From positions 1 to 23,255 of the IMG/VR virus record IMGVR_UViG_3300032288_000549: a stretch of DNA of 23,255 nt. One strand, given 5' to 3'. Under the pieces are notes generated by a model. That model did no database searches, was not told where the DNA came from, and saw only the letters and a list, made by a program, of their open reading frames with translations. A program made the position numbers and the translations under genes. Position 1 is the stretch's first letter. Each line of letters starts with the position of its first letter. Below are positions 8,034 to 23,255 of this stretch, in pieces. This DNA is from a virus.

Positions 8034-8043
8034 ACCTATATTA
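8034..8043 (-). promoter_or_regulatory. Late start element AATATAGGT (portal/lysis unit)
   Basis: On the minus strand TAATATAGGT directly abuts the GTG start at 8033. An upstream TTTG lies 12 nt before the element. It follows the terminator at 8067-8094, so a new transcription unit is needed here. Confidence 0.55.
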
Positions 8044-8066
8044 AATTAGGTTTGTCAAATGTTCAT

Positions 8067-8096
8067 AAAAAAAGCCCCACCATGTGGCAGGGCTCT
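8067..8096 (-). terminator. Rho-independent terminator after the 179-aa structural gene
   Basis: On the minus strand AGCC and CCAC pair with GTGG and GGCT, with a short internal bulge and a three-base loop, followed by seven T residues (8073-8067). It lies just after the stop at 8118 and separates the head unit from the portal unit. Confidence 0.75.
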
Positions 8097-8117
8097 AATA
8101 TATAGAGAGGCAGGATA

Positions 8118-8657
8118 TTAAACTGTGATACCAATTGATGCTAAAGCAGCAGGGTCTACCTCATAAGCTAGGTACTCATTCTCAGCTACCAAAGTAACTG
8201 AATACTTAGAACCATCTGCACGAGCTGTTCCTGAACCTTCACCTGTAGCAGATACCTGCATGTATGGGAAGTACCAAAATATACCATTAGCATCTAATAC
8301 GATTGCAGTCAAGTATTGTTGACCTGCACCTAAGATTTTAATAGCACGAGACTTATCAGCCTCTCTTCGGTGGAACATTAAGTTAATAGTCTGAGTAACA
8401 AATGAGCTACCATTAACTAGGTCAATAGTGCTATCCTCAGTAAAGTTAGATGTGTTTCTGCGAACGTAGTAGTTTTCAAATGGAACACCTGGAGTACCTG
8501 CTAGAGTGATTGCAGTGATAAGCCACCCCGCACCCGCTGATGGGTCCGTTGGAGTGATTGATGCAATGTTATCTTGTTGGTTAATCCAAATACCATAAAT
8601 ACCACCACTATTGTTGTCGCATGATTTTACGATTGCTTCTAATGCTTGACAAGCCAT
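8118..8657 (-). CDS. Structural protein, candidate major tail tube protein
   Basis: A 179-aa beta-rich protein with few charged stretches. Features are GGIYGIWINQQDNI, a middle segment TQTINLMFHRREADKSRAIKIL, and a C-terminal half with FWYFPYMQVS and SKYSVTLVAENEYLAYEV. Size, beta content and position beside the capsid gene fit a tail tube or other abundant virion protein, but I do not recognise a defined family. Terminator-like hairpins stand on both sides (8672-8697 and 8067-8096), as expected for a gene expressed at its own level. Confidence 0.5.
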   Translation of the reverse strand: MACQALEAIVKSCDNNSGGIYGIWINQQDNIASITPTDPSAGAGWLITAITLAGTPGVPFENYYVRRNTSNFTEDSTIDLVNGSSFVTQTINLMFHRREADKSRAIKILGAGQQYLTAIVLDANGIFWYFPYMQVSATGEGSGTARADGSKYSVTLVAENEYLAYEVDPAALASIGITV

Positions 8658-8671
8658 TGTGTTAAAGTATT

Positions 8672-8697
8672 AAAGAGCCCCCTTGGTAGAGGGCTCA
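8672..8697 (-). terminator. Hairpin after the major capsid gene
   Basis: On the minus strand GAGCCCTCT pairs with AGGGGGCTC (nine pairs, one G-T) around an ACCA loop, followed by TTTAATACTTT. The U tract is interrupted, so read-through into the 179-aa gene is likely. It may act as an attenuator that sets the capsid to downstream ratio, or protect the capsid mRNA end. Confidence 0.6.
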
Positions 8698-8709
8698 TGG
8701 TTATTATTA

Positions 8710-9642
8710 TTATGAGTAGTAAACGATATCAACACCATTCACATATTCAAAACCAACTTTCATGTTGGCACGTGTACGGATGTACGGCTCAGCTACAGTA
8801 TCAGCTAAGTTAACAGCACGTAGGTCAGAAGAGTCACCCTCAGCATCAAATGCATAGATAAGGTTATCTTTCAAAGTCCATACGAAAGTGTTGTTAGACA
8901 TACCAGGACATACTACAATCTTAACACCTAAGAAAGTTAAGTTCAAATCTTGAGTAATGTAAGCTTGAGTGTTACCTGAAGCTACTCCTAATCGGTAGAT
9001 ATTCACTAATTGAGTAGGCATGTACAAACGTAAATCAGCTGTACGTGTAGCAATAGATGCAGGAAGTAAAGCAAATGCAGCAGCTAATTTAGTCTCTAAT
9101 GTAGAGAAGTTAGCGATTGTTCCTGTACCACCATTGATAACTGTATCAGTTGGGTCAGTTAAACCTGCAGTTAATTTTTTCTCATAACCGTCACACAAAG
9201 CAAGTGTAGGGTTTAATGAAGCAGTGTCACCTTGCCAACGGATTGACTCGATATCACCATTGATTTTGTTAGCCATCTCACCCCAGTAGAAAGACATGAA
9301 AGATGCAACTGAGAAATCTCCGTTAGATCCTTTTGACATTTGAAGAGATAAGAAAGATTGCTCAAGGTCAAACTGACAAATCTGAGCCATTGCAGAAAGA
9401 GCACATACATCAATTTCTTTAGCGTTCAAATCATCATTAGGAGCAGTAAAGCTACAAGTAGATGGTTGTAAGATGTTACCAAAAGTAACAGTCGCTAATT
9501 TAGTTTTGTACTTTACTCCTGGCAAAGAACGGTAGTTATCAGCAGTATCCTCAGACAAGTAAGCTTGAGAATAGAATGCCTCAGGGTTAGCTGCTAATAA
9601 AGCAGTTGGGTCAACTTGTAAGTCGAATTTTAATTTACGCAT
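8710..9642 (-). CDS. Major capsid protein
   Basis: A 310-aa protein directly after the protease/scaffold gene, which is the usual partner of a capsid protein. Its features are an N-terminal arm, SCSFTAPNDDLNAKEIDVCAL, LSLQMSKGSNGDFSVASFMS, a domain with LRLYMPTQLVNIYRLGV, then ITQDLNLTFLGVKIVVCPGM and a C-terminal strand GFEYVNGVDIVYYS. These recall HK97-fold capsid proteins of Bacteroidota phages. The start follows an A-rich leader (AACAACAAATAAA) with no Shine-Dalgarno box. The codons look more uniform than in the neighbours, in keeping with high expression. Confidence 0.8.
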   Translation of the reverse strand: MRKLKFDLQVDPTALLAANPEAFYSQAYLSEDTADNYRSLPGVKYKTKLATVTFGNILQPSTCSFTAPNDDLNAKEIDVCALSAMAQICQFDLEQSFLSLQMSKGSNGDFSVASFMSFYWGEMANKINGDIESIRWQGDTASLNPTLALCDGYEKKLTAGLTDPTDTVINGGTGTIANFSTLETKLAAAFALLPASIATRTADLRLYMPTQLVNIYRLGVASGNTQAYITQDLNLTFLGVKIVVCPGMSNNTFVWTLKDNLIYAFDAEGDSSDLRAVNLADTVAEPYIRTRANMKVGFEYVNGVDIVYYS

Positions 9643-9643
9643 T

Positions 9644-10627
9644 TTATTTGTTGTTTATGAATTTGTTTACACTAGAAAATCTTTGCTGTGCACTCATGGC
9701 CACAGCCTCAGTCAACACCTCTTCCTCTACTTCCATAGATAGAGCCTCCTCAAGTTGGTTCTTAAGGTCAGCAATCATAGCAAGCAAAGCATTCATTTGC
9801 TCATCCATTGCAGGCTTAACAATAGCAAGGATTGCCTCTGCATCAACTACAGGGTCAATTGCCATTGTTGTTTCCTCTGCAGGAACTTCTGCTGTTACTT
9901 CCTCTTCGATAACAGTATCTTCTAGAGCCACTTCCTCAGAAGCCTCTACTTTTTCAACATCTTTTACTTCAACTACTTTACCATCCTTTACGATGTAGAT
10001 TTTTTCGTTGATGATGTGCTCGCCGTCCGGCAACATTAACTCATTCATTTGTGTATTTATTTGGGATTGTTTTTGCTCTTTTAATTTCATGCCTAAGTAC
10101 CCCTCAATACTGAAACCTATCTGCTCTTGACTAACAAGCTCAGCATAGTATTCTTTGTCAGTTACCTGAGCTGTTACCATTAGTGTACCCTCCGGTACTT
10201 CAATACCAAATGATGAGTAAGCTTTGTCCTCTTTTGGGTTATCTACTATCCATGCCTCAAGTACATAGGCAGGAACGGTCTTAGATTGGTCATGCTCCAG
10301 GTTGAATAGGTCTCGGTTGACCATCTGCTGCATGAACTTGCCATGAATTTTCTCTATCTCCTCCTTGCTAAACTTGACATTGTACTCCTCTTTGCTATCC
10401 TCATCAAAGCGGTATATCTCCATAGGTATCAAAGCAGGTGCAGTGATACGGTACTTGAGTTCATCCGAAAAGAATAAAGGCTTAGCTTGAGCACTGAATG
10501 CCATCCCCTTAACTTTGATTGCAGGAGTAGCTGTAAAAGCTATCTGCTCAATGCCAAGGTCCTCACCATTTTCAGCGTATGCTGGGTCAATGGTTATTTG
10601 ATAGGTAGGGATATTGTCTTTTGCCAT
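9644..10627 (-). CDS. Prohead serine protease (XkdF-like) with acidic scaffold-like tail
   Basis: A 327-aa protein. Residues 1-185 resemble the XkdF-like prohead protease: NLEHDQ supplies the probable catalytic His112 and IGFSIEGY the probable Ser173. Residues 215-320 are extremely acidic and helical (VEKVEASEEVALEDTVIEEE, then a coiled coil with MNALLAMIADLKNQLEEAL), which looks like a scaffold. One ORF may therefore supply both scaffold and maturation protease for the capsid protein encoded next. It starts behind the AATATAGGT element, 6 nt further from the ATG than in the tightest cases is not needed: only three extra bases separate them. Confidence 0.75.
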   Translation of the reverse strand: MAKDNIPTYQITIDPAYAENGEDLGIEQIAFTATPAIKVKGMAFSAQAKPLFFSDELKYRITAPALIPMEIYRFDEDSKEEYNVKFSKEEIEKIHGKFMQQMVNRDLFNLEHDQSKTVPAYVLEAWIVDNPKEDKAYSSFGIEVPEGTLMVTAQVTDKEYYAELVSQEQIGFSIEGYLGMKLKEQKQSQINTQMNELMLPDGEHIINEKIYIVKDGKVVEVKDVEKVEASEEVALEDTVIEEEVTAEVPAEETTMAIDPVVDAEAILAIVKPAMDEQMNALLAMIADLKNQLEEALSMEVEEEVLTEAVAMSAQQRFSSVNKFINNK

Positions 10628-10629
10628 CT

Positions 10630-10639
10630 ACCTATATTA
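10630..10639 (-). promoter_or_regulatory. Late start element AATATAGGT (head unit)
   Basis: On the minus strand TAATATAGGT is followed by AG and then the ATG at 10627, two bases further from the start than at the other sites. It lies in a 44-nt gap shared with the divergent plus-strand gene, and a run of T residues lies upstream. Confidence 0.55.
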
Positions 10640-10648
10640 AAAAAAACG

Positions 10649-10656
10649 TATATTTG
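10649..10656 (+). promoter_or_regulatory. Candidate -7 element for the plus-strand chaperone pair
   Basis: TATATTTG matches the Bacteroidota -7 consensus TAnnTTTG and ends 15 nt before the ATG at 10672. No -33 element is seen at the usual distance; the nearest TTG (10621-10623) is 25 nt upstream. It is therefore a weaker candidate than the two early promoters. Confidence 0.45.
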
Positions 10657-10671
10657 TTCAAAAATTACAAC

Positions 10672-11211
10672 ATGATAAATGTACTTAACAGGGATATTCC
10701 CAACCAACTTGATGAGATAACCATTGAGCAGTTTGAAACTATTACCGAAATCAACAATGACCCTAACCTGGACCCCATTGATAAACACCTTAAAGTGTTC
10801 GCTTATCTTGGGATACCTGAGTCTGAGTTTTGGGATTATGATGTTGCTGATTTTATTAATGTGGTAAAGGAATTTAATAGCCTTGAGCAGAAAGAACATG
10901 CAACAGTTGAAGAGCTAGAGCTTGAGGGCTACACCTACAAAGCACAAATGAAGTTGACCGTACGTGATACTAAGATGATTGAGAAAGTAGCACTACATAA
11001 AGAGAAAGGATATATCTCTGAGATGTTAGCGATCATGTTCAAACGTGAGGACCTTACACCTGCAGAACACTATGCTGAGGCACATATCAAACACAAAGCT
11101 AAATTAATTAGAAAGTTAACTGCAGATGTAGCTATTCCTTATTTGATTTTTATTGCTGATAAAATTAGCCAACAAGTTAAGAACAATGCAAGTACCCAAG
11201 CAGTGGAGTGA
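10672..11211 (+). CDS. Candidate tail assembly chaperone 1
   Basis: The ATG at 10672 (MINVLNRDIP) is preferred over a TTG at 10621, which lies before the promoter-like TATATTTG. The 179-aa protein is acidic and helical. Its N-terminus (PNQLDEITIEQFETITEI) matches that of the next gene (PKQWSDITVEQFIEFNGI), so the two are related. Such paired proteins beside tail genes are typical of tail assembly chaperones, which bind the tape measure before tube polymerisation. Here they lie on the opposite strand from every other structural gene. No slippery site for a frameshift fusion was seen. Confidence 0.55.
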   Translation: MINVLNRDIPNQLDEITIEQFETITEINNDPNLDPIDKHLKVFAYLGIPESEFWDYDVADFINVVKEFNSLEQKEHATVEELELEGYTYKAQMKLTVRDTKMIEKVALHKEKGYISEMLAIMFKREDLTPAEHYAEAHIKHKAKLIRKLTADVAIPYLIFIADKISQQVKNNASTQAVE

Positions 11212-11923
11212 TATAACTGTTGAGCAGTTCATTGAATTTAACGGAATAGCAAAAGACCAGGGAGCCTACTACTACAATAGTGAGGCTCTTTCTATTTTAT
11301 CCAATGAACCCATTGAGGTCATTGAGGACCTTGATGTGGATGAACTCACTGAACTAATCCAAGAGAACAGTTGGTGTGCCTCCGAACCATCCAAAAAATA
11401 TAAGCATGAGCTGTTAGGGATGAAGTTCAAACCATTCAATAAGCTAACCCTTTACGAGTACATTGACCTTGACTATTATTTTATCAATAACTACATTAAT
11501 AACCTAGCTAACATTTGTGCTATCTGCTACCGGCAAACTAGAGTGAACGAATGGGGTGAGCAAATCATGGAGCCTTATGACTTTGACTGCACCATTAGAG
11601 CTGAGAAATTCCTTGACCTACCAATCACCGATGTATATGGTATCCTGCAGGAGTTCATTAAGTACAGGGATAACTTTCTTAAGAACTATGAAAACTTATT
11701 TAGTGGTGAACTTGATGAAGAGCTATCCAATGAGGAACGTCAAGAGATGGACCCTGAAGAGATTAAAGAAATTGAGAAAGAGCAAAGCCTTGCTAAGTGG
11801 TCATGGGAACAAACCATCTACAATCTAACCAAAGGTGATATAACCAAGAGTGATAAGGTTGGAGCCCTACCACTCGTCTATGTGTTTAATATCTTGTCTA
11901 TGAAAAAAGAACTAGACATCTAA
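11186..11923 (+). CDS. Candidate tail assembly chaperone 2
   Basis: The ATG at 11186 gives MQVPKQWSDITVEQF; an upstream TTG frame is rejected because the alignable region starts at this ATG. The 245-aa protein shares the DITVEQF start and the following pattern (I.D..V.EL..LI) with the previous gene, then diverges. It has LTLYEYIDLDYYFINNYINNL and a very acidic stretch, DEELSNEERQEMDPEEIKEIEKE. It overlaps the first gene by 26 nt. Its stop overlaps the stop region of the convergent minus-strand gene by 12 nt, with no terminator between them. Confidence 0.55.
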   Translation: MQVPKQWSDITVEQFIEFNGIAKDQGAYYYNSEALSILSNEPIEVIEDLDVDELTELIQENSWCASEPSKKYKHELLGMKFKPFNKLTLYEYIDLDYYFINNYINNLANICAICYRQTRVNEWGEQIMEPYDFDCTIRAEKFLDLPITDVYGILQEFIKYRDNFLKNYENLFSGELDEELSNEERQEMDPEEIKEIEKEQSLAKWSWEQTIYNLTKGDITKSDKVGALPLVYVFNILSMKKELDI

Positions 11924-12364
11924 TGGGAACCCAGGAGTAAATCCTGCAGGAGGGTCAACTGCTTCAAATGTGTACACAATTTTCTGCTGTTTTTCAAGGA
12001 CCTCAACAGCCTGTACTAATGGGTACTTTTTAGTTAACCATTCAGTGTACTGTCTATATATTTCTGCTGTGATACCTGCAGCGTTTAACTCATCCGTAAA
12101 TTGTGCCACGAAGTCACGAGGGGTGATTACTCCACCATTCCAAAGAAACGCACCATTGTTTAGGAATATAAAGTAATACATGGCCACGATTTGTATCTCC
12201 AACTTTTGGAAGCCTGTGACCTTGGCATTGATACGGATACTTTCTACGAGTGTACCCTCACCATCCACAACATCATTCCTAATTATTCTTTTGAGTATTG
12301 TAGCCATTTTCCTACGAGTAGGATATAGCACATTGAACTCCCCTGTGTTTGCGTATCTAGCCAT
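11912..12364 (-). CDS. Head-tail or tail-completion protein, unassigned (150 aa)
   Basis: The N-terminus is basic and helical (TRRKMATILKRIIRN), followed by a beta segment (LVESIRINAKVTGFQKLEIQIV), a hydrophobic stretch (YYFIFLNNGAFLWNGG) and a helical region. Size and layout recall small HK97 gp10-like tail-completion proteins, but the match is only by impression. It overlaps the preceding 47-aa gene by 8 nt and runs convergently into the plus-strand chaperone pair. Placement among tail genes supports a virion assembly role. Confidence 0.45.
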   Translation of the reverse strand: MARYANTGEFNVLYPTRRKMATILKRIIRNDVVDGEGTLVESIRINAKVTGFQKLEIQIVAMYYFIFLNNGAFLWNGGVITPRDFVAQFTDELNAAGITAEIYRQYTEWLTKKYPLVQAVEVLEKQQKIVYTFEAVDPPAGFTPGFPLDV

Positions 12365-12500
12365 TGATTAATGCTTTATATATTTCCATTGTATCATCCA
12401 CTAGAATGATACCCTTATCAGTTTCTACATGCAGCTGTGTATCACTGACCACCTCAATGGGGCCTGTTATAGTGTACTCTATTCCGTTTATATTAATCAT
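12357..12500 (-). CDS. Small protein of unknown function (47 aa)
   Basis: The ATG at 12500 overlaps the stop of the fibre gene by 8 nt (ATGATTAA), and its stop overlaps the next start by 8 nt (ATGGCTAG). The sequence MININGIEYTITGPIEVVSD, then LHVETDKGIILVDD, looks like a compact beta protein. Such symmetrical overlaps are strong evidence of translation. The function is unknown; a small accessory of the fibre or tail is possible. Confidence 0.6.
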   Translation of the reverse strand: MININGIEYTITGPIEVVSDTQLHVETDKGIILVDDTMEIYKALING

Positions 12501-13854
12501 ATATCTGTACTATTACTCGTTTATGTCCAAGGTTATCAGGTGTAGTTGTTGAATTTTGTACTGCAAAAATTAAGTAATAAGCAGTAGCAGAATTGAATGG
12601 TATAAGAGCTATTCCACCAGTGGTTAAATCCGAACTAACAAAACCCGTTGTTAGATACACATTCAAATTTGTTCCGTCAAAAAATATATTTCTTCGAAAA
12701 TTTTGAATATAATTAGTACCTGTCATTTGTGCAGAAGTTGCTAGTAGTGTAGCACCTGTCAAACTATTTGAAGTATTGATATAAATTCTACCCGTTGAAG
12801 TAGTTGAGCCTGCGGTCTTTGTTAATAAGCTTTGAATATAAATAGTATTATTACTTACCAACGTACCTGCAGGTATCAATACGGATGCACTAATCTGATT
12901 AGCTGTACCTGTTAGGTTGCTACCATTAATACTAGCTAATGTACTAGGGTTAGTAGTTATATTCCCACTACCCAACAAAGATGTTGAGTTAATTGTCTTA
13001 ATGTTTGTACCTGATACCAATGCTGCTTGCTTAGCATTGAACGCACTCCAATCGGTAGTACTCAATGCACCCCTAGTTGTAGCCGATGCTGTTGGTAGAT
13101 TGAATTGGTGATCAGTGCCACTTGATACCACGTTGAAGTCAGTACCTGTAGTGCCTGTGCTTATTGTTTGTATATCCGCACTTAGGCCATTCAATGCAGT
13201 CATTCCTGTTCCTGCTATGATGCCTGCCTGTTGTGTTACGGTAAAGATAGCAGATGCTGTAGCAGGAGGTGGACTACCTGCAGGATAGTACTCCATTGTA
13301 ACATCCAAGCTAGTAGCACTCCACATGAGCTCATAGAAATCACCACCAACTGCATCAAGTAAATAGTTCCATGATGGTATGCAGTGACCAGGTATTCCAC
13401 CATGAGATGATATAACAGCTACAAAGCCTGCACTACCTGCTACATCTGAGCCATTCTTTCTAAGCCATACAGTTACATCATGCTCTTGGCTATCTATATT
13501 TTGAAACTGAAAAGAGAACTGCAGGTTATATATTCCTGTGTTAGCTATGGTTATCTCAGTATCACTGTTGACTGTTACCCCATTGCTGAAGTCCATGGTC
13601 CTGAACTTAGTAGGTTGGCCTACATTCACTGCACCTAATGGTTGACTAAGGTCATCCTGGTATTGTGCATAGTACCCTGCAGCACCGCCACCACCACCAC
13701 CTGCTCCATCAATGATTTGTTGACCGGTGATAACAGTGTTAGTAGGTACTCCACCTGACATCATTGTACATTCAATCAAGTCAGTAGGCTGTAAATTTCC
13801 TGTGTGAGGTGTGAGGGTTGGCCTCCAATCACCCCACCATAAAGGTGAACTCAT
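12493..13854 (-). CDS. Tail fibre or receptor-binding protein with C1q/TNF-like and jelly-roll parts
   Basis: A 453-aa protein. The N-terminal 50 residues (WWGDWRPTLTPHTGNLQPTD) look like an attachment domain, joined by a GAGGGGGGAAG hinge. Residues about 70-210 are beta-rich (ITIANTGIYNLQFSFQFQN, VTVWLRKNG) in the manner of C1q/TNF-like domains. Then comes GALSTTDWSAFNAKQ and SLLGSGNITT, shaft repeats common in Bacteroidota phage fibres. The C-terminal 150 residues, with many Asn, Thr and Ser, form a second beta domain. This part is more AT-rich than the rest of the gene, as if exchanged. It probably recognises the host surface. Confidence 0.7.
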   Translation of the reverse strand: MSSPLWWGDWRPTLTPHTGNLQPTDLIECTMMSGGVPTNTVITGQQIIDGAGGGGGGAAGYYAQYQDDLSQPLGAVNVGQPTKFRTMDFSNGVTVNSDTEITIANTGIYNLQFSFQFQNIDSQEHDVTVWLRKNGSDVAGSAGFVAVISSHGGIPGHCIPSWNYLLDAVGGDFYELMWSATSLDVTMEYYPAGSPPPATASAIFTVTQQAGIIAGTGMTALNGLSADIQTISTGTTGTDFNVVSSGTDHQFNLPTASATTRGALSTTDWSAFNAKQAALVSGTNIKTINSTSLLGSGNITTNPSTLASINGSNLTGTANQISASVLIPAGTLVSNNTIYIQSLLTKTAGSTTSTGRIYINTSNSLTGATLLATSAQMTGTNYIQNFRRNIFFDGTNLNVYLTTGFVSSDLTTGGIALIPFNSATAYYLIFAVQNSTTTPDNLGHKRVIVQIYD

Positions 13855-13864
13855 ACCTATATTA
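13855..13864 (-). promoter_or_regulatory. Late start element AATATAGGT (fibre unit)
   Basis: On the minus strand TAATATAGGT directly abuts the ATG at 13854. The upstream 20 nt (TTCGGATGCTTAGAA) closely match those before the element at 20912, so the conserved region extends beyond the core. Confidence 0.55.
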
Positions 13865-13883
13865 TTCTAAGCATCCGAAATGT

Positions 13884-14327
13884 TTAATTGCCTGACAAAG
13901 GAACTGCACAATCAGTCCAATCATTAACCGTTAATGTTATGTTCATGACATAGCCTGCAGCGTAGTCAAGTAAATCATTGTTCAAAGGTTGGAAGTTAGG
14001 TATCCCAATCACATCAAAGCTATAGTCAGTACCATCCATGTAGTAAACATAAAGGTCATTGAGTATCTGCTGTGTATCGCTTAGGATTGTTATGATGTTA
14101 GCCCTGTCCTTTTGGATGATGTCAAAGCAGTAGATGTCAAAGTTAAACTCTGAGGTGTTCTCGGTAGGGTTTACGCTAACAGGAACCACAAACACAATAG
14201 GATATTTCTCATCCTTAGTAGCGAAGTTAAATAGCTGTTCCTTAAAGTCACTGCCTACTTTCTTAACCTGGAGGTGATTGTTATAAAACAGTTCAATGTG
14301 ATCTATGATTGCTTGTAGTGAGTTCAT
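13884..14327 (-). CDS. Conserved tail-region protein of unknown function (147 aa)
   Basis: The sequence HLQVKKVGSDFKEQLFNFATKDEKYPIVFVVP and FNFDIYCFDIIQKDRANI belongs to a family I associate with Bacteroidota phage tail modules, but it has no named function. It is a mixed alpha/beta protein with no membrane segment. Size and position beside the tape measure would suit a tail terminator or a minor tail protein. Its ATG shares a base with the tape measure stop (TAATG). Confidence 0.6.
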   Translation of the reverse strand: MNSLQAIIDHIELFYNNHLQVKKVGSDFKEQLFNFATKDEKYPIVFVVPVSVNPTENTSEFNFDIYCFDIIQKDRANIITILSDTQQILNDLYVYYMDGTDYSFDVIGIPNFQPLNNDLLDYAAGYVMNITLTVNDWTDCAVPLSGN

Positions 14328-16612
14328 TATAGTTCAGCGTTTTTGTTAATCTTGGTTATCTTGTTTTGTACGTTGGTTATTTGTGTCTCTGATACTACAG
14401 CTGTGACAGTCATGTTGGTGCTTGCTGTACCACCTCCTGCACTTATCACATTGCCGGTATTAGCTGAGCCAAATAACTGAGCTGCTTGAGGTACTTGCTG
14501 TGCTACATTAGCACCGCCTCCTGTTGACTCTGAGCTTGTGCCTCCACCACCTGCAGAGGGGCTACCTCCTGAAGTTAATATCTGCTTGGCCTTGGCTACG
14601 TTGGTAGCAATCTGAATGATACCTGAAGCGAACTGAGCAATACCTGCAGCACCTGCTGTCACTCCGTTGAATGGGTTGGATTGTGAAGCAGCAACCAATG
14701 CAGAGATAGCCTTGGCTGTATCAATACCTATTTGTATCAATGCGTTTGCCTTGTTAAACTTCTCTAGTTTCTTTTGGTCCTTGATAAACGCAGCACCTAC
14801 GGTATTAAGGCCATTAGCTATATCGGATGCAAGTGCTAGTTTAGCCTCCCTTTCTTTCTTAGCGTTCTCAATCTTTTCAAGGGTGTACTTATTCTCAATG
14901 TTTTTCTTATCCTCTTCAAACTTAGCTGTAAGCTGTAGCTGTGCAGCTGCATTATCACCTAGTATCTTTTGCTCTTCCTTATACTTCTCCTCCAGTGCTT
15001 TAATATCTTTCTGCTCTTGAGTAGCATTCATGTTGAAGATTAAATCTTGAGCTTGCTTAAGTGCTGCTGCTTTTTTCTCTTCCTCTGCTTTTAGTTTATC
15101 CTCTTCCTCTTTTCTTTTTTTCTCAGCCTCATCTGCGTACTTTTGGTCAATGGCTGCCTTATCCTTTCCTAGTTGCTCAAGTAGTAACTTCTCAAGTTCA
15201 GCATTCCCATCTGCTATCTCCATCTGCTTGTCAAACTCCTCAGTAAGTTTCTGCTTTTCATATTCCTTTTGAGACATGGTGAGCTTGTTCATGAGGTCGA
15301 ACTGAGCATCTTCTCTTTTTATCCTTTCCTCATTTTCCTTAAGAGCTATATCATGAAGTCTCTTTGCCTCTGCCTCTGCTGCCTTAATTCTTGCATCACT
15401 TTCTTTCTTATGGTTAGCAGTCTTTTTCTTTTGGCCATCAATGTTAATTTTATTAGTCTTCTCTAATTCCATTGCTTGCTTGAGTGCGTTCTTAGCCTCC
15501 TCCTCATACATGTTAGACTCTTTCTTGAAGCCTGCCTCTTTCTCCTTAACACGTTTCTTTTGCTTAGCTGCAAGTGTCTCTTCACTATTACCTGCTAATG
15601 CATTGGCTCCTACAATCACCTGACCTAGTAAACCTGTTGCTGCAATGTACTGCTTATTCCTGTTAACAAAGTCTCGTGTCTTATCAAGGGCTGTAGTCTG
15701 GTCTTGAGTCTTAGCTAGGATTGCCTTAGCATCTGCCTCAGCTGCTTTCTTAGCAAATACCTCAGCTCTAGCCCTTGCCATGGTAGCGGCAATATATGCA
15801 TCGGTCTTAGCCACATATAATCTTTCAGCCTCCTGTAGTGTAGTGGCTGCACCAAATGTATCACCTAGCTTTTCGTTGTAGGTAGCAAGTGCCTCCTCTT
15901 TAGATATCACTCCCTCTTTAGCTAGGTCGAATGCAGTGCCTACTTCATTCACTGTAGTGATCACCCCAACAGCTGAGTCCTCCATTGCTTTATTAGCTTC
16001 GGCATTGGCCTCCTGCATACGTTTGAACTCTTCACTTTCTGCTGCTGCTATACCTAGACTCTCACCGAATTCCTTTATGATTTCAATGACTGCATCGAAT
16101 GCTATACCTACACCCTCAACTACTTTGTCAAGATAGCCTAGCTTCTGCATCAATACCACAGTGATAGCAATGATGGCGGCAATGACTGCAGCAATTAAAA
16201 AGATAGGGTTAGCCATTAAGGTAGTACCTAATGACATGAATGCTTTGCCTATTGTTCCAATGGTGCTAGTAAGTCCTCCGAATGCCTTGCTTAAATCTCC
16301 AGGTTTAATGTTACCCAATGAGGTAGCAAACACTTTAGCTCTTTCACTAGCCTCCTCAAAGTCAAGGCTCATTAAACTATCCTTGATACCACCTAATGAG
16401 TTACCTACTGCTTCAAACTTTGAACCTGTCGCAAAGGTATTAACTGCCTCATTGGCATCCTGTAGTTGGTCCTTTAACTCCCCTGCTCGCTGTGCTAACC
16501 TGGCAATATCTGCAGGGTCAGTAGCGTTAGCAATGGCACCCTTTAATTCTCTGAGCTCTGCCTTGATGGCACCAATGCCACCAAGCTTAATAGGTATTTC
16601 TACTTCATTCAT
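14327..16612 (-). CDS. Tape measure protein
   Basis: A 761-aa protein. Residues about 120-160 are a hydrophobic double segment (LMANPIFLIAAVIAAIIAI). Residues about 200-580 are long, highly charged coiled coil (KRKEEEDKLKAEEEKKAAAL and similar). The C-terminal 130 residues are alanine- and glycine-rich with GIAQFASGIIQIATNVAKAK and a serine/glycine linker. This is the classic build of the protein that sets tail length and leaves the virion during DNA ejection. It shares one base with the gene before and the gene after it. Confidence 0.9.
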   Translation of the reverse strand: MNEVEIPIKLGGIGAIKAELRELKGAIANATDPADIARLAQRAGELKDQLQDANEAVNTFATGSKFEAVGNSLGGIKDSLMSLDFEEASERAKVFATSLGNIKPGDLSKAFGGLTSTIGTIGKAFMSLGTTLMANPIFLIAAVIAAIIAITVVLMQKLGYLDKVVEGVGIAFDAVIEIIKEFGESLGIAAAESEEFKRMQEANAEANKAMEDSAVGVITTVNEVGTAFDLAKEGVISKEEALATYNEKLGDTFGAATTLQEAERLYVAKTDAYIAATMARARAEVFAKKAAEADAKAILAKTQDQTTALDKTRDFVNRNKQYIAATGLLGQVIVGANALAGNSEETLAAKQKKRVKEKEAGFKKESNMYEEEAKNALKQAMELEKTNKINIDGQKKKTANHKKESDARIKAAEAEAKRLHDIALKENEERIKREDAQFDLMNKLTMSQKEYEKQKLTEEFDKQMEIADGNAELEKLLLEQLGKDKAAIDQKYADEAEKKRKEEEDKLKAEEEKKAAALKQAQDLIFNMNATQEQKDIKALEEKYKEEQKILGDNAAAQLQLTAKFEEDKKNIENKYTLEKIENAKKEREAKLALASDIANGLNTVGAAFIKDQKKLEKFNKANALIQIGIDTAKAISALVAASQSNPFNGVTAGAAGIAQFASGIIQIATNVAKAKQILTSGGSPSAGGGGTSSESTGGGANVAQQVPQAAQLFGSANTGNVISAGGGTASTNMTVTAVVSETQITNVQNKITKINKNAEL

Positions 16613-19452
16613 TATGGCTTGTAATATCTTATTTCTAATGTGGTATAGTTAAGGTAGTTGTCTACATACCCTACACCTATCTGAGTTGTTAATATATAAA
16701 TGCTATTGTTACTTGGTATGTACTGAGCACTGATCACCCCGTCAAAGTTTACGTTGTTAATCATGACAGTCATCTCACTTGCTAGAATTGTTCCTATCTC
16801 CCAATTTTGTATGAACCCCTCATACTCACCTTGGTTGTTTCTTACCCATAGGATATCTCCAAAGCTACCCTCTTTCACATCGGCTACAGGGTCACTTGTT
16901 CCTGATTGTGTGAGCAATGCAGTGTACTTGTAATAAGATGGGTCAACCGGTATGCCGTTCATTCTACCTCTTACCACAAGGTTGTCAGTTACTATACCAT
17001 CATCCTCAACTGAGTATCCCTCGGTGGCCACCATTACTCTGAGTCCACCCGGTACAATGTTACCCCTGTTCACTACCTCACCAATGATACCACCACCTGT
17101 GAGCACGTTGCTGTTCATGCTCTTGGTCTTAACAATGGTGCTGTTAGCTACCTGCTGAATTGCTGAGATGTTAGGAAGTCCAACACCTGGTGTACCGAAT
17201 GGGTTAATGAACGGCATGAAGTTCACCTCACTATCCACTGAGATAAGTTCTACCTGTGTGAGCTTGTTAGCATTGGCATCGTAATCAATGACCTTGTTAA
17301 TGTTCCACCATGAGTTATCAATGCGTATCTTGTCATTGAGCTTCATAGATTGGATGTCAGTGTCCTTGAGATTAAAGAATGCAGTCAACATCTTACCGCT
17401 ATTAATCTGCCCCATGGTTCGCCTCCAATACCTGTTATAAAGGTTGTTATCAGTTAGGCTTAATGGTTGGTAGTAGTAGAATGAACACACCGAGTAGTTC
17501 AAATCCCACGTAGGATTAAGTGGGTTATCAAAGTGTCCAACGTATGGGTAAGTGGTTACACCTGTCATACCCGTTGTGCCATAGTCATAGATGTGGTATG
17601 GTGAACAGGTACTCAATCCTATCTCAGCTGTACTGTCGTACATGATACGGAGGTTAGTCTTAGGTGCTTGTCCTGCAATCATTCCAACATATGCACCGAA
17701 TGGTGTACGGATGATTGGTGTAGGACCAAACAATACAGGCTTAGTGGTTACATCCTTGACATACTCATTGTCAAAGACTACCTCTGCTTGTCCGTAGATT
17801 TGATTGGTAGCTGTGGTGTATGTAGCATTAGGGCTGTCCGTATCAGGTGCATAGGTGAGTATTAATTTCTTGCTTGTCAGTTCCGGTAAGAATGAAAGTG
17901 ACTGCTCCTGGTTCTTAGCTAGCTTGTATGTCCAATCTACTTCATTGCCTGCATCGTAGTATGCATCCCTATGGATTAGGTTGAGCTGATTGGGTTGGTT
18001 CTTATCTACATCTGCATACAGGTTGTACATGTTAAAGATAGCCTTAACAAAGTCATTCTGCTTTATCTTTTGTGGCACGTAGTCATTCACATCAATAGTA
18101 CCACCAATGGCCACAATGTTATTGGATGGGGTAATGCTAATGTTAATGCTAGTAATCACTGCCTGTATCTTAATCTGACCAGATGCACATGGAGTTCCTG
18201 ATGCTGACCCTATTCTCCATAGTGGAGCTTGAGCATTGGTAATAGGTGTTAATATCTTTGGCACCTTAATAGCTAACCTACCTTGAGATAGCTGTGGTAA
18301 GTTCTGAGCAGTCAAAGCCATAGTACATACAGCTGTTTGACTTAATACTGTAGTAGTACCGTTAGGTATTGAGGTAGGAGTCTGAACTGCATAGGTAACC
18401 GTAGCACTGTTGTTAAGTGGTGCAGGATTGGTGTATAGGTTGGTAGTGTAGCACACAGTACCATTCTGAGTGAGTGCTATCTGAGGCTGATAAAATTGCG
18501 GAGATGAGATACCATTCATCCCTGAGTATAATGTCACACCTGAAGAGTTGACTAATCTTATCTCATATTGTATCTGCACATTGTAGTCGTACTGCTGTGC
18601 ATTGTTTGAACTTATATTGAATGGGGTGCTATAGACTCCAGTGGTAGGGTTAAATATGTTCTGAGGGTCCTCGGTCTCAGTCCATCCTGCTATGGTTTGT
18701 AAGTTCTGAAACTCAGCAGACCCTGCAAAGAATGTACCGGTGTAAGTGGTTGGTCCTGCATTAGCCTTGACTGTGTAATCTGCATAGTCAAAGTTATCCG
18801 TATCCCCATTGTATGGAATGACTAGCTTGTCAAACTTATCATCTACCAAGTCAGGCCAACTGTATGTAAACCCTGCACCTTGAAAGATACGGTCAAAGTA
18901 AGTCTTGGCAAAGATAGCAGGCTTGAACTCCTGAGTGCTGTAGAATGCATCCCCACTACCAGGGAGGAAGTACTTGAAGCCATCCACCTCAGTGTTGGTA
19001 AACCTGTTCACCACATTGAATGCATCGTATGTGTGATTGAGGTCACTGAAGTCTATATCGGTTAGCTCAAGGTTATTGATGGCTGTAAAGAAATCGGCCT
19101 TGCTTTCCTTGACCAATACCTCATACTCCACATGCTCCTCATACTGCTCAGTGAGCTGTACCTTTTTAATAGCTGTGAGCTGTAGGCTTGCATCCTCCAT
19201 GACAGGTATCCCATCCTGGATAACTGAGCAGGTAGTCACTGCATTGATGTCAAACGTTCCTGCTTGAATGTTCACATCGTAGTAGTGGTTCAGTAGGTCA
19301 TTGTTATTCTTGCTACCTACCAAAACAATAGTCTTAGAAAAGTTACCTTTCCTTTGACTTATATCTCTAATGTCTCCTACCTGAAATGTCAAAGGGAATG
19401 AAGTACCCTCTTTAACATCAAGGTATCCTGTTGCTAGTTGTATCCTAACCAT
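16612..19452 (-). CDS. Large tail/baseplate protein (946 aa)
   Basis: The start is the ATG at 19452, where ATGGTTAG overlaps the preceding stop by 8 nt; a TTG at 19473 would give seven extra residues and is less likely. The N-terminus GDIRDISQRKGNFSKTIVL with GSKNNNDLLNHYYDVN is a recurrent start of large tail proteins in Flavobacteriia phages. The middle is beta-rich and threonine/asparagine-rich, and the C-terminus has GRMNGIPVDPSYYKYTALL. It is probably a tail tip or baseplate component beside the tape measure. The exact role is unknown. Confidence 0.65.
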   Translation of the reverse strand: MVRIQLATGYLDVKEGTSFPLTFQVGDIRDISQRKGNFSKTIVLVGSKNNNDLLNHYYDVNIQAGTFDINAVTTCSVIQDGIPVMEDASLQLTAIKKVQLTEQYEEHVEYEVLVKESKADFFTAINNLELTDIDFSDLNHTYDAFNVVNRFTNTEVDGFKYFLPGSGDAFYSTQEFKPAIFAKTYFDRIFQGAGFTYSWPDLVDDKFDKLVIPYNGDTDNFDYADYTVKANAGPTTYTGTFFAGSAEFQNLQTIAGWTETEDPQNIFNPTTGVYSTPFNISSNNAQQYDYNVQIQYEIRLVNSSGVTLYSGMNGISSPQFYQPQIALTQNGTVCYTTNLYTNPAPLNNSATVTYAVQTPTSIPNGTTTVLSQTAVCTMALTAQNLPQLSQGRLAIKVPKILTPITNAQAPLWRIGSASGTPCASGQIKIQAVITSINISITPSNNIVAIGGTIDVNDYVPQKIKQNDFVKAIFNMYNLYADVDKNQPNQLNLIHRDAYYDAGNEVDWTYKLAKNQEQSLSFLPELTSKKLILTYAPDTDSPNATYTTATNQIYGQAEVVFDNEYVKDVTTKPVLFGPTPIIRTPFGAYVGMIAGQAPKTNLRIMYDSTAEIGLSTCSPYHIYDYGTTGMTGVTTYPYVGHFDNPLNPTWDLNYSVCSFYYYQPLSLTDNNLYNRYWRRTMGQINSGKMLTAFFNLKDTDIQSMKLNDKIRIDNSWWNINKVIDYDANANKLTQVELISVDSEVNFMPFINPFGTPGVGLPNISAIQQVANSTIVKTKSMNSNVLTGGGIIGEVVNRGNIVPGGLRVMVATEGYSVEDDGIVTDNLVVRGRMNGIPVDPSYYKYTALLTQSGTSDPVADVKEGSFGDILWVRNNQGEYEGFIQNWEIGTILASEMTVMINNVNFDGVISAQYIPSNNSIYILTTQIGVGYVDNYLNYTTLEIRYYKP

Positions 19453-20911
19453 TGACCATGTCGTTGTTAGCAAGCTTGATTGTAATGCTTTGCTTGATTA
19501 GATTTTTATTCCGTTGCTTGTAATACTCATAGTTGGATGTCACCACGTTGCAGCTCACATACTGAGTGCTTTCAGGTATGTCACAGCTTTCATCATAGTT
19601 GCTTATCTTAAAGTATGTGTAAGGTGAGCTAATCAGTTCAGTGAAGTAGGTAGCCATGTCCTCACTCATCCAATCGGTATTGAGGTCAATAGTTTCATCC
19701 ACTGTTACATACGTGTTGGTGTATCCTCTTTCGGTTAGGTCATAGGTCCACTCACTTGAGTCAATATATCCTGGTACATCTTGATTGTATTGTTCTCTTG
19801 TTACGTTGCCTCTTTGGTATGCTCTACCTGTGAATGCAAAGCTACCCCATGAACCATAACGGTCTAGGAAGATGATGCTGTACTCTTGGCTTTGTGTTCT
19901 GCGATCTATGTTAACCTGGTATGACTGTGTAACCTGTGCACCATTGTACTCATAGTAGTATCTATAGAATTGTGTGGTAGGCTTAATCAATGGCAGTGTA
20001 CCTGACACTACAGTTAGTGTTCCTGCATTGTTAGGACCTACTGCATTGCCTGTTATGAACCCACTTGCACTCAATGGTTTTTCAAATATATCCCCTCCAT
20101 CATTCTCAAATATAATCTTGTGAGTACCTGCACCTACTATTCCATAGACTGCATTCATCCAAAGGTCTTGAGATAGGGTACAATAGAATTCACTCTTAGG
20201 GCATGAGGTCAAAAACTTATCACTTGAAGTTAATAAGAAATAGTCATTCTCATTCCATGATGGCCATTGAGTCCAAGGCAATGCACCATTGAACACGTAG
20301 TTATTCAGGTCATCAATGATATTGTATGTGGTGGTCTTTCTCCCATCTGCATAGGTGATTGCCACATCCTTGTTTGCGTTGGTGATTGAACTCCAAAGAA
20401 AGTTGATAACAATGTATGTACCGGTAGCAACAAGCACAGTGTACAGTCCGTCAAAGTTAGCATTGGCTGTACCTGCTCCTGTTTGAGTCAAGACTATCTG
20501 ATCACCAACAGCGAATGTGTTAGTGCCGTTCAGCTGTACCGTACCTGCATAGGGTGCAGTCACATACTGAGTCATGGCTGAGGTGAATGAGGTGGTAGTT
20601 AGATATTCCTCACCTACCTTAAGGTCATACTTGTAAGAGCTGTTAGGTGCGTTGTATGATGTGTCATTAGTTGGGTTGAGGTCAAAGCTAACCTTGGCTT
20701 GAAGTAGCTTGGTTAGGTCTATCTCACCGTACCCTGTAGAGTAAACAGGTAGGACCCTGTACTCTGCTATTTGATTGGCAGTACCTGATTGATACACTTC
20801 AAAGATATACTTAAACCCTGCTAGGTTTTTGTTGGTGCTATCATAGATGAACTTGATAGGATTGTATGCTGGAGTGAAACGCTGAGGTGCAGCCTGTAAT
20901 GTCATTGCCAT
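19445..20911 (-). CDS. Tail-associated structural protein (488 aa)
   Basis: A mainly beta protein with N-terminal FTPAYNPIKFIYDSTNKNLA and FKYIFEVYQSG. A central insert has FDGLYTVLVATGTYIVIN, and the C-terminal part has QSQEYSIIFLDRYGSWGSFAF and DWMSEDMATYFTELISSPY. It looks like a fibronectin- or Ig-type virion protein of the distal tail, not recognised further. It opens the tail unit behind an AATATAGGT element, 31 nt after the large terminase gene. The second ATG, two codons in, is an alternative start. Confidence 0.6.
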   Translation of the reverse strand: MAMTLQAAPQRFTPAYNPIKFIYDSTNKNLAGFKYIFEVYQSGTANQIAEYRVLPVYSTGYGEIDLTKLLQAKVSFDLNPTNDTSYNAPNSSYKYDLKVGEEYLTTTSFTSAMTQYVTAPYAGTVQLNGTNTFAVGDQIVLTQTGAGTANANFDGLYTVLVATGTYIVINFLWSSITNANKDVAITYADGRKTTTYNIIDDLNNYVFNGALPWTQWPSWNENDYFLLTSSDKFLTSCPKSEFYCTLSQDLWMNAVYGIVGAGTHKIIFENDGGDIFEKPLSASGFITGNAVGPNNAGTLTVVSGTLPLIKPTTQFYRYYYEYNGAQVTQSYQVNIDRRTQSQEYSIIFLDRYGSWGSFAFTGRAYQRGNVTREQYNQDVPGYIDSSEWTYDLTERGYTNTYVTVDETIDLNTDWMSEDMATYFTELISSPYTYFKISNYDESCDIPESTQYVSCNVVTSNYEYYKQRNKNLIKQSITIKLANNDMVNG

Positions 20912-20921
20912 ACCTATATTA
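20912..20921 (-). promoter_or_regulatory. Late start element AATATAGGT (tail unit)
   Basis: On the minus strand TAATATAGGT directly abuts the ATG at 20911. A TTTG lies 11 nt upstream of the element, and GCTTAGA in between is shared with the site at 13855. Confidence 0.55.
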
Positions 20922-20942
20922 ATCTAAGCAGGCAAAGTGTTT

Positions 20943-22094
20943 CTAAAATGCGTAGTAGCTGTCATCCGTATAGTACTCCTGTCGGATGTGAGTAGTGGCA
21001 TAACGGATTGCATCCATCGCATCATCAAACATCTTGACCGGTTCATCCGTTATCATATCCCCTACTTTTTTCCACTTGTAATTTTCATACTCTTTCTTGA
21101 GTGCCTTATCATCCTGGCATAGGACCCCGAATGTCTTGATGTTATCTATCCCTTTCTTTACCACCTTGTTTGCGTTCTGCACGTCATACCCTGCATTGTT
21201 CAGCTCGGCTATTATTTCAGGCCTAGCATAATCTGCTACTATGGTTACAGTCTTTTCAACGTTGAAGCTTTGCATCTTGTCAATCAGCATTGGTGTAGTC
21301 AGGTAGCTTTCATATATCACAGGCTCAATGTATATGTCGTTGTCACACCAATAGACACGCATGAGTGCAGTAGGGTGATTGTATCCAAAGTCTAAGCCAT
21401 ACACATAGTTGACAAACCTAGCAGGCCTATGAGGGATGAATGACCAATTAGAGTAGATGTTACTCTTGCTGATTGCTTTCTCACCTAGGGCATAGATTTG
21501 ATATAGTGCCTCATCCGTTCTCTTGAGGTCCTCTATCTGAGCCCTGATACTCTGAGGTAGGAATGGGTTATCTTTGTAGGTTGACTTTATCAGGATGCTT
21601 TCCTCCTGAGGTAGCTCATACAGCCATGAGGTTGACTCACTGGGGTTGTAGTCAAAGATTAGCTTAGACTCCGTTCTCATGTTCAGCTGAGTGAAGTCAT
21701 CAAAGTATAGCTCATTGGCCTCGTTACACCAAGCTATATCTCTTTTACGGCCCCTTATCTTTTGCTCATCATCCACACTAAAGAACTCCACAATGGACCC
21801 ATTAGGGAACGTGTAGATGTGCTCACTCTTGTTGTGGTCCTCCACTGAGTAGATGTTGAGTTCCTTGAGTATCTCAATGAAGTCTCTGAGTACTGTAGCC
21901 CTTAGAGCAGGGAATGTCTTACGGATGATACTTACTACCTTGTTATTGTTCTGCAGGCAGTATATGATAACTAACTGACATAGGCTGTAGGTCTTAGATG
22001 AACGGGAGCCTCCCTCGTTAATCACAAACCTTATATCCTGGTCATTGAGTGCTGCGTAGTTTTTCTCAAATATGACTGTGCTCTTTATCTCCAT
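20943..22094 (-). CDS. terL: Terminase large subunit
   Basis: A 383-aa protein with an ATPase and a nuclease domain. GGSRSSKT (28-35) is the Walker A motif, RDIAWCNEAN (118-127) the Walker B region with Glu125, and FDYNPSES (148-155) the coupling motif. In the nuclease half GLDFGYNHP gives Asp235, IVADYARPE Asp288 and MFDDAMDAI Asp358/Asp361, the RNase H-like metal ligands. It pumps DNA into the prohead and cuts concatemers. It is slightly short for the family but all motifs are present. Its start lies inside the 55-aa ORF. Confidence 0.93.
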   Translation of the reverse strand: MEIKSTVIFEKNYAALNDQDIRFVINEGGSRSSKTYSLCQLVIIYCLQNNNKVVSIIRKTFPALRATVLRDFIEILKELNIYSVEDHNKSEHIYTFPNGSIVEFFSVDDEQKIRGRKRDIAWCNEANELYFDDFTQLNMRTESKLIFDYNPSESTSWLYELPQEESILIKSTYKDNPFLPQSIRAQIEDLKRTDEALYQIYALGEKAISKSNIYSNWSFIPHRPARFVNYVYGLDFGYNHPTALMRVYWCDNDIYIEPVIYESYLTTPMLIDKMQSFNVEKTVTIVADYARPEIIAELNNAGYDVQNANKVVKKGIDNIKTFGVLCQDDKALKKEYENYKWKKVGDMITDEPVKMFDDAMDAIRYATTHIRQEYYTDDSYYAF

Positions 22095-22233
22095 GTGCTA
22101 TCTGATATGCATTCATTAGCATAGCCATCTGCCTGCCATCTGCAGCTACTGCTCTTCTATCTATCCTTACCTGTACCCCTTTCATCCTGTAGATGTAATC
22201 CTCCACCACTGCACACATGAACTCAATCTGCAT
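22066..22233 (-). CDS. Nested 55-aa protein between terminase subunits
   Basis: The ATG at 22233 overlaps the small terminase stop by 11 nt, and the stop at 22066 lies 29 nt inside the large terminase gene. Without it, 128 nt between the two subunits would be empty in a genome that otherwise has no such gaps inside operons. The product (MQIEFMCAVVEDYIYRMKGV, then RRAVAADGRQMAMLMNAYQI) is helical, with methionines and basic residues. The function is unknown; a packaging accessory factor is possible from its place. Confidence 0.6.
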   Translation of the reverse strand: MQIEFMCAVVEDYIYRMKGVQVRIDRRAVAADGRQMAMLMNAYQIAHGDKEHSHI

Positions 22234-22645
22234 CCGGTCTCACAATGGTTACCTTGATGCTGTCTATCTTTTCACCCTTGGTTGTGGTGTCAACCCGTTC
22301 GGTTAGGTTGTTTAATCTCTGAGTAATGGATGCATTGTACTGCCCGGTCATACCTCCCTCTATTTGGTCCATGCGGATTGCCTCCTCTATACGCGAGCAG
22401 ATTGTGGCATATTCAGAATATCTATCTCCCTTGTTACAAAAATAATCATTCACTGTTTGCCCTTTCTCAGCAGCAAAAGTCCTGAAACCCACTTGAGTAA
22501 GTGGTCTTTCTAATGGTACTGCTGTAGCTTCACCTGTCTTAGTAGATAGTGAATAGGAGTATCTAGGGTTTTCCTTGCACCAACGTTTGTAGGCCTCAAA
22601 TAGATCCCACATTGCTTCAGGTGTTTCTATGTGCTTAGGCCTCAT
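22223..22645 (-). CDS. terS: Terminase small subunit, P22 gp3-like
   Basis: A 140-aa protein. The N-terminus IETPEAMWDLFEAYKRWCKE, then RPLTQVGFRTFA and VNDYFCNKGDRY, follow the GP3_package family of small terminases. A helical segment, CSRIEEAIRMDQIEGG, and a C-terminal part with ITQRLNN follow, the region used for ring assembly. It recognises the packaging site and feeds DNA to the large subunit. It overlaps the upstream 68-aa gene by 11 nt. Confidence 0.85.
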   Translation of the reverse strand: MRPKHIETPEAMWDLFEAYKRWCKENPRYSYSLSTKTGEATAVPLERPLTQVGFRTFAAEKGQTVNDYFCNKGDRYSEYATICSRIEEAIRMDQIEGGMTGQYNASITQRLNNLTERVDTTTKGEKIDSIKVTIVRPDAD

Positions 22646-22841
22646 CTGACTCAGGTTCTATTCCTTTGAATTTCTTACTCTTAGGCTCTACATCCTCAAA
22701 CAAATAACCGAGACCTACCTTTGTAAAGTACTCATGGTTATCAGCTAATTTCTCAGTAACTACTATAGAGATATCAAACCCCTTATCATTGTACCTAGTT
22801 ATGTAAGTGCCCAGGTGCTCACTCTTTACTTTCTTTGTCAT
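22635..22841 (-). CDS. Small charged protein of unknown function (68 aa)
   Basis: A soluble protein with a beta-like middle (TYITRYNDKGFDISIVVTEKL) and a lysine/glutamate tail (EPKSKKFKGIEPESDEA). Not recognised. Its ATG overlaps the small membrane protein gene by 23 nt and its end overlaps the small terminase by 11 nt. It is therefore translated as part of the packaging unit, but nothing shows its role. Confidence 0.6.
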   Translation of the reverse strand: MTKKVKSEHLGTYITRYNDKGFDISIVVTEKLADNHEYFTKVGLGYLFEDVEPKSKKFKGIEPESDEA

Positions 22842-22995
22842 ATTCGTATTGTTCTAAAAATAACCATGCGTAATATAGTACTACCCATATCCCAAAAGCT
22901 TTCATTGACATTGAAGTGTTCTCCCTGACTAGAAAGAACGCACCGGTTAATGCAGTGAATGTAGCAATGATGCTAATTATTTGAGAAAGTCTCAT
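22819..22995 (-). CDS. Small membrane protein (58 aa)
   Basis: The ATG at 22995 directly follows an AATATAGGT element. Two hydrophobic segments are visible: IISIIATFTALTGAFFLV (6-23) and AFGIWVVLYYAWLFL (33-47), joined by a polar loop and followed by an acidic/basic tail, QYEYDKESKE. It overlaps the HTH gene upstream and the 68-aa gene downstream by 23 nt each. The function is unknown. Its position ahead of the packaging genes does not suggest a lysis role, and superinfection exclusion is one possibility. Confidence 0.6.
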   Translation of the reverse strand: MRLSQIISIIATFTALTGAFFLVRENTSMSMKAFGIWVVLYYAWLFLEQYEYDKESKE

Positions 22996-23255
22996 ACCTA
23001 TATTGTAGATTGCGTAAATTTTGTTTAATTTCAGTTATCAGGTAGTGAGCTGAGGTAACCGGTATATCAAAGTACTTAGCCATGCTTCGAGCTGTGGTGT
23101 ATCCTTTGTCGATGTATGCCTCAAATACTATCCTGTGCACGTTATCACTTATTTGTGATCTATATATCTCAATCATCCCCTTGTGAGTGCTGTATATCTT
23201 ATCCTCAAGTATCTTAGCCTGCAGGTCCTGCTCATCATCTACCTCGTCACTGGGC
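22973..23255 (-). CDS. Helix-turn-helix protein, 5' end outside window
   Basis: The frame is open from the right edge to the stop at 22973, giving about 93 residues. An ATG at 23176 is inside the open frame and probably internal, because the residues before it (DEQDLQAKILEDKIYS) look like genuine protein. The part after it contains a helix-turn-helix, TTARSMAKYFDIPVTSAHYLITEI, with the flanking helices of a small regulator or terminase-like DNA-binding domain. It lies upstream of the packaging genes. It could be a late regulator or a second small-terminase-like protein; the sequence does not decide. Confidence 0.6.
   Translation of the reverse strand, partial: PSDEVDDEQDLQAKILEDKIYSTHKGMIEIYRSQISDNVHRIVFEAYIDKGYTTARSMAKYFDIPVTSAHYLITEIKQNLRNLQYRYETFSNN
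22996..23004 (-). promoter_or_regulatory. Late start element AATATAGGT (packaging unit)
   Basis: On the minus strand AATATAGGT directly abuts the ATG at 22995. Unlike the other four copies it lies inside a gene (the 3' end of the HTH gene) and is preceded by C instead of T, so its upstream context is constrained by coding. Confidence 0.45.

Follow-up and report, generated by a model that had tools for sequence, protein, structure and literature searches.

A bipartite element at the start codons of five late gene units in an uncultured Bacteroidota-type phage: a probable phage-specific late promoter and its candidate sigma-like reader

The stretch of DNA analysed here, hereafter the window, is a single IMG/VR virus record of 23,255 nt (IMGVR_UViG_3300032288_000549) whose genes are typical of small tailed phages, with a primase, an HNH endonuclease, an exonuclease, an endolysin and a holin, a portal, structural proteins, a tape measure and a terminase. 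End repeats were looked for across the 23,255 nt and none was found, and searches for tRNA genes and against Rfam gave no match; genomes of the lineage are ~29 kb. The large terminase subunit (TerL) is only ~34% identical to its best match among cultured Bacteroides and Flavobacterium phages, and the source is an uncultured tailed phage of Bacteroidota-type bacteria. The subject of this report is a short element, the exact nine-mer AATATAGGT, which lies at the heads of the late gene units, together with the phage protein that is a candidate for its reader.

The nine-mer occurs on the minus strand at 8034, 10630, 13855, 20912 and 22996, separated from a start codon by 0, 2, 0, 0 and 0 nt, respectively, and an exact-copy scan of the window returned no further copy, in agreement with a preliminary description of the sequence. 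The expectation of less than one chance copy expressed there also holds, with 0.49 copies (standard deviation 0.67, maximum 2) in 100 dinucleotide shuffles against the five observed. A rough estimate of the probability that five independent copies should all lie on the correct strand and 0-2 nt upstream of any of the 33 starts is ~4e-14. The extensions were likewise described correctly, TAATATAGGT at four of the five sites, TT[TC]G at three and GCTTAGA at two, but TT[TC]G does not stand as the upstream feature; the conserved upstream partner is instead AACA, found at all five sites. The element is thus bipartite, AACA-N15/16-YAATATAGGT; its spacer is 16 nt long except at the 10630 site, where it is 15. 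The AACA box had escaped the preliminary description, as had a sigma-like gene whose end lies at the first site and a concerted change of the motif between subclades of relatives, both taken up below. The five sites, numbered as putative late promoters, and the units they head are:

22996-23025, minus strand: putative late promoter 1; AACA at 23022-23025, 16-nt spacer, CAATATAGGT at 22996-23005, adjoining the ATG at 22993-22995; heads gene 22819-22995, then small open reading frames (ORFs) and the small and large terminase subunits
20912-20941, minus strand: putative late promoter 2; AACA at 20938-20941, 16-nt spacer, TAATATAGGT at 20912-20921, adjoining the ATG at 20909-20911; heads gene 19445-20911 and the tail unit with the tape measure
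13855-13884, minus strand: putative late promoter 3; AACA at 13881-13884, 16-nt spacer, TAATATAGGT at 13855-13864, adjoining the ATG at 13852-13854; heads gene 12493-13854
10630-10658, minus strand: putative late promoter 4; AACA at 10655-10658, 15-nt spacer, TAATATAGGT at 10630-10639, with the ATG at 10625-10627; heads gene 9644-10627 (protease/scaffold-like), then a virion structural protein
8034-8063, minus strand: putative late promoter 5; AACA at 8060-8063, 16-nt spacer, TAATATAGGT at 8034-8043, adjoining the GTG at 8031-8033; heads gene 7683-8033, with portal and lysis genes

It had been claimed that all gaps between late units carry the element. This is true of the five unit heads, but the 52-nt gap at 8658-8709 holds only a small terminator-like hairpin without the late motif, and the gene at 9642 directly follows its neighbour. 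A further hairpin lies directly before the fifth site and supports the existence of separate transcription units:

8071-8096, minus strand: intrinsic-terminator-like hairpin with a T run, between the capsid unit and putative late promoter 5; its tail GGGGCTTTTTTT is retained in relatives

Conservation in relatives, the test on which the preliminary description had staked its proposal, bears it out, since throughout the lineage the motif is found at these five gene families. A TerL search yielded 507 viral stretches; 80 loci from it were retained, and the family comparison as a whole covered about 190 related IMG/VR loci, with unique upstream sequences counted. In the five gene families, 137 of 188 unique upstreams have the core AATATAGG no more than 16 nt from the start, as opposed to 1 of 804 for all others, and the motif is strongly biased to the sense strand (204 versus 18 antisense). 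The full bipartite pattern is found in 226 of 237 upstreams of the five families (39/39, 57/66, 53/55, 40/40 and 37/37 for the orthologues of promoters 1 to 5, in that order) and nowhere else, save for six cases at two neighbouring families. Within the core-aligned family sites, [AT]ACA stands at a spacer of 15-17 nt in all 194 unique sequences, compared with 40 of 426 core copies outside the sites, while the sequence of the spacer drifts; a fixed spacing combined with a free spacer sequence fits recognition of DNA. In one large subclade the gene following TerL, at the head that corresponds to putative late promoter 2, keeps AACA-N16-TAATATAGGT with the start codon 11-12 nt further downstream, and an element that stays intact though the start codon has moved argues for a promoter rather than a translation signal. 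Of the two options offered by the preliminary description, the late promoter is therefore strongly supported and the signal for translation initiation disfavoured.

Among the loci listed (up to L198) in a scan of the viral collection for AACAN{15,17}TAATATAGGTATG, all but five (L109, L168, L184, L185 and L196) encode proteins of this family. The same pattern gave 110 matches in 84,980 cellular genomes, where a rough estimate predicts ~90 by chance; no family member was found among the 110, and no prophage was seen. Being near chance level and outside the family, these matches do not constitute a host regulon, which was rejected also on the ground that ~40% of them lack an ORF of 50 codons from an ATG. 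Two irregularities were noted among the relatives. In G015 (L339/L340) and G024 (L317/L318) the late promoter and the start of a gene of the g12493 type are present twice, near each end of the record, representing either a duplicated gene or terminal redundancy of the assembly. In the L072 clade (e.g. L483 at 8602), the late motif is mimicked just after the sigma-like gene by coding sequence, GTTGACAAYATAGAT following an AACA-like box, and this copy was excluded from the site counts of divergent subclades.

These divergent subclades were gathered by wider searches with divergent sigma-like proteins, and their sites were located by anchored searches, plain enumeration of heptamers having failed in several of the subclades. 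Here the motif differs from that of the window and does so at several sites of a genome together: G019 has GCAATATAAG at each of its four sites and G022 at three of its four, G021 has TAATATATA at three, and three orthologous heads of the L404 clade have AACACGAA-N~12-YATTATAA. The sigma-like protein of this last clade shares 39% identity with the L146 query. The ten-base cores of non-orthologous sites differ by a mean of 1.15 within a genome and 2.78 between genomes, a disparity that none of 20,000 permutations of sites among genomes within a site class equalled, and a Mantel test of motif against sigma distance gives r = 0.65. That the sites of one genome have changed in concert implies a shared trans-acting reader, and this is the pattern to be expected if one protein per genome reads them all.

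The best candidate for such a reader is encoded at the very end of the window, immediately upstream of the terminase unit:

22973-23254, minus strand: C-terminal 93 aa (sigma4-like helix-turn-helix) of a sigma-like protein of ~180 aa, truncated by the contig end

Full-length relatives are present in L016 (8574-9116) and G006, and the gene that immediately precedes the first late unit of a complete relative encodes 181 aa with the two-domain look of an extracytoplasmic function (ECF) sigma factor. The viral collection holds 379 relatives of the protein; its gene and the late motif occur together in 21 of 21 genomes examined, and the gene itself has no late motif upstream. A 27-member alignment matched 16 families in NCBIfam, 12 of them sigma factors. 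The AlphaFold prediction (mean predicted local distance difference test, pLDDT, 80) has helices at residues 2-27, 33-46 and 54-73, and at 95-122, 126-136, 143-150 and 154-180; the model has the ECF architecture of sigma2 and sigma4 helical domains without sigma3 in ~180 aa. In Foldseek searches of the PDB the first ~30 matches are almost all sigma factors, mainly ECF and including Mycobacterium tuberculosis SigL and SigH and E. coli sigmaE, and among the named matches in the viral library BFVD are phage sigma factors. The fold search also listed, at a weak E value of 0.13, an ECF sigma encoded by Cronobacter phage GAP52, which is 7-11-like. Across 396 Bacteroidota genomes the sole match is a 175-aa ORF of the ECF sigma type (E 1e-4, 25% identity). 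Single sequences gave no convincing relative in Pfam, PHROGs or the PDB, and INPHARED phages contain no homologue.

Taken together, it is quite probable that the element is a bipartite, phage-specific late promoter that heads five late units and is read by the phage sigma-like protein, with both transcription from the five sites and its late timing presumed from the sequence patterns. In the scheme that we envisage, host RNA polymerase with its housekeeping sigma factor would first read early promoters of the TAnnTTTG type. The last gene before the terminase unit would then yield an ECF-like sigma of ~180 aa, which, with its sigma4 domain on AACA and its sigma2 domain on YAAT(ATA), would bring the host core RNA polymerase to all five late promoters. 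Since the promoter is pressed against the start codon, transcription would begin at or within a few nucleotides of the A or G of that codon, and most late mRNAs would likely have no leader or almost none, which lies at the edge of the expected range. At the sites examined the heptamer is 3 nt from the start codon in 75 cases, 4-5 nt in 41 and 12-15 nt in 7, and never closer. A more far-reaching version, in which the start codon is itself the transcription start and the late mRNAs of the lineage have been built without leaders, the promoter being fused to the initiator codon and mostly kept so while sigma and promoter co-evolved, has in our estimate slightly less than an even chance. Such short or absent leaders are rare in relatives of the host: leaders of less than 10 nt account for 3.7% of B. 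thetaiotaomicron mRNAs and leaderless transcripts for 5.5% of those in F. psychrophilum (PMC7366714, PMC9723704).

Several points weigh against this interpretation, in part concerning the protein and in part the geometry. No Pfam sigma family matches the protein; the best NCBIfam sigma models reach E 2.6e-4, and all matches in that collection fall far below the curated cut-offs, so that the protein can be called ECF-like, a remote assignment to the sigma factors that lies outside the family cut-offs. Alignment with hhalign to 16 Bacteroidota ECF sigmas and E. coli RpoE is collinear and full-length but weak, with P 0.0015 globally and an HH probability of 2-7%, a profile search of the PDB gave no sigma match, and the predicted template modelling score (pTM) of the model is 0.41. 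The role of reader is proposed from genome position, co-occurrence and covariation, and relatedness contributes to the Mantel value. The geometry is tight, the A of ATG standing at Y+10. The housekeeping register of F. johnsoniae, T-12 to G-5 (PMC6847099), would place the start within the start codon. The sigma promoters of phages 7-11 and phiEco32 have starts 6-9 nt downstream of the element (PMC8948821), a distance that would fit only if YAAT(A) is the core that is read; with YAAT as that core the start would lie at the A of ATG or just beyond. Finally, one of the five starts is GTG, which is less usual for leaderless mRNAs.

Other readers have to be weighed against the phage protein. A host alternative sigma factor of the ECF class, or another DNA-binding protein for which the element is an operator, is an unlikely explanation, though the strongest of those remaining: AAC-type -35 boxes are typical of ECF promoters and Bacteroidota possess many ECF sigmas, yet the bipartite motif stays at about chance level in the 85,000 cellular genomes, and its variants track the phage sigma-like protein, whose gene is found in every family genome examined. 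Slightly less credit is due to a variant TTTG/TAnnTTTG promoter of the host housekeeping sigma, for which the ~20 nt from a loosely conserved TTR to TAATATAG, reminiscent of host -33/-7 geometry, could be adduced. YAATATAG violates two near-invariant T positions of TAHHTTTG, however, and these genomes carry true TAnnTTTG boxes at other genes; the late motif changes in concert between subclades while TATATTTG at the divergent gene is unchanged, and the host register would put the transcription start within the start codon. More improbable again is a translation-initiation signal acting in the mRNA as an enhancer or a leader contacted by the ribosome. The copies in the window touch or nearly touch the start codon, the T preceding ATG is conserved, and Shine-Dalgarno sites are lacking in Bacteroidota (PMC6847099), but the element is intact in the subclade with the start codon 11-12 nt away, AACA at fixed spacing across a variable spacer is a DNA-like geometry, GG at -3/-2 opposes the A-3 preference of Flavobacterium, and no structural gene within the units is preceded by it. 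An origin by chance, or by recent duplication of some short sequence, is hardly credible even with just five copies in the window, given 0.49 expected, unrelated flanks and conservation at these genes as far out as relatives whose sigma-like proteins are about 40% identical. A promoter for a single-subunit polymerase of the T7 or mitochondrial type was considered for the resemblance of GCAATATAAGTA to TATAGG and was rejected, the gene list of a complete relative containing no such polymerase. A scan for E. coli-type sigma70 promoters showed no excess.

The closest known system is that of Salmonella phage 7-11 (SaPh711_gp47), with late promoters of the form GTAAtg-(16)-aCTA (PMC8948821). Common to both are a phage sigma with a domain that reads the -35 region (here predicted), bipartite late promoters with a 16-nt spacer before structural units, use of the host core polymerase (here proposed) and early promoters for the host sigma; the present phage differs in its motif, AACA-16-YAATATAGG, in the phylum of its host, in genomes of ~29 kb and in a promoter that adjoins the start codon, and the two are likened by layout. 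A conserved non-host motif upstream of late units, which characterises the phiEco32/7-11 type, is present. The promoter tAATGTAtA of the phiEco32 sigma factor gp36 has an AT-rich -10-like element resembling TAATATAG (PMC8948821, PMC4331800), but it is a single element, with starts 6-8 nt downstream, and gp36 has no recognisable region 4. The promoters of sigma-ABfr, TTTG/TAnnTTTG, are used by early genes here and have a similar overall spacing (PMC7366714, PMC6847099); the late core YAATATAG does not fit TAHHTTTG, and the late heads are without that box. F. psychrophilum SM5 (TAnnTTGY) and SM6 (CGT), the latter probably read by an ECF sigma, are also alternative Bacteroidota promoters, but they differ, and neither has been described as AACA-16-YAATATA (PMC9723704). 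No late regulator or late promoter of Bacteroidota phages was found in the literature searched. In Firmicutes phages, the late regulators RinA and ArpU have a sigma4-like regulator gene just before the terminase genes, as is the case here, but they are activators without a sigma2 domain. The system is of a known kind (7-11, phiEco32), and what appears to be new is the lineage, the motif, the fusion to the start codon and the concerted evolution. It is a probable late promoter system that can be read from sequence in a lineage of hundreds of contigs, both the candidate gene and the short promoter being open to direct tests, and five promoters changing with a sigma-like protein provide a natural series for studying sigma-promoter specificity in a phylum whose promoters are unusual. 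If the late mRNAs are leaderless, the phage leans heavily on a mode of translation used by only about 4-6% of mapped Bacteroidota mRNAs (PMC7366714, PMC9723704).

The early genes carry promoters of the host type, and the late motif is distinct from these, as the preliminary description had held. In the window the following boxes were recognised:

622-629, minus strand: host-type -7 box TATATTTG, before the early primase gene (ATG at 617)
3352-3359, minus strand: host-type -7 box TATCTTTG, before gene 3157-3324
10649-10656, plus strand: host-type -7 box TATATTTG, before the divergent genes 10672-11211 and 11189-11923

Among relatives, TAnnTTTG is present in 16 of 22 unique primase upstreams and in 40 of 40 at the divergent pair, with no late motif at either, while this sigma-ABfr -7 box is essentially absent upstream of the late heads, where the core is YAATATAG. 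The box before the divergent pair overlaps the AACA of putative late promoter 4 (10649-10658 for the two together), and late initiation at that promoter could occlude early transcription of the pair. The two overlapping genes of this pair (10672-11923, plus strand) are opposed to all others and lie between the capsid and tail blocks; they have no convincing family match where scanned, and both share a similar 'ITxEQF' stretch.

Upstream of the primase gene, four faintly DnaA-box-like copies of TTATCGTCAT, three exact and one with a mismatch, lie at 635-738 on the minus strand and form a possible origin or operator; close to them, 867-1319 encodes a small protein with a DnaA C-terminal domain (Pfam Bac_DnaA_C). 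The 81-aa protein at 1695-1940 (minus strand) is named 'RNA polymerase beta subunit' by PHROG 2044, a label that is probably wrong, the protein being far too short for it and bearing a weak Pfam resemblance to a scaffold domain. A variable slot is occupied in the window by the HNH endonuclease gene (1912-2532) and in relative G006 (L323/L324) by a DNA cytosine methyltransferase gene (5282-6595).

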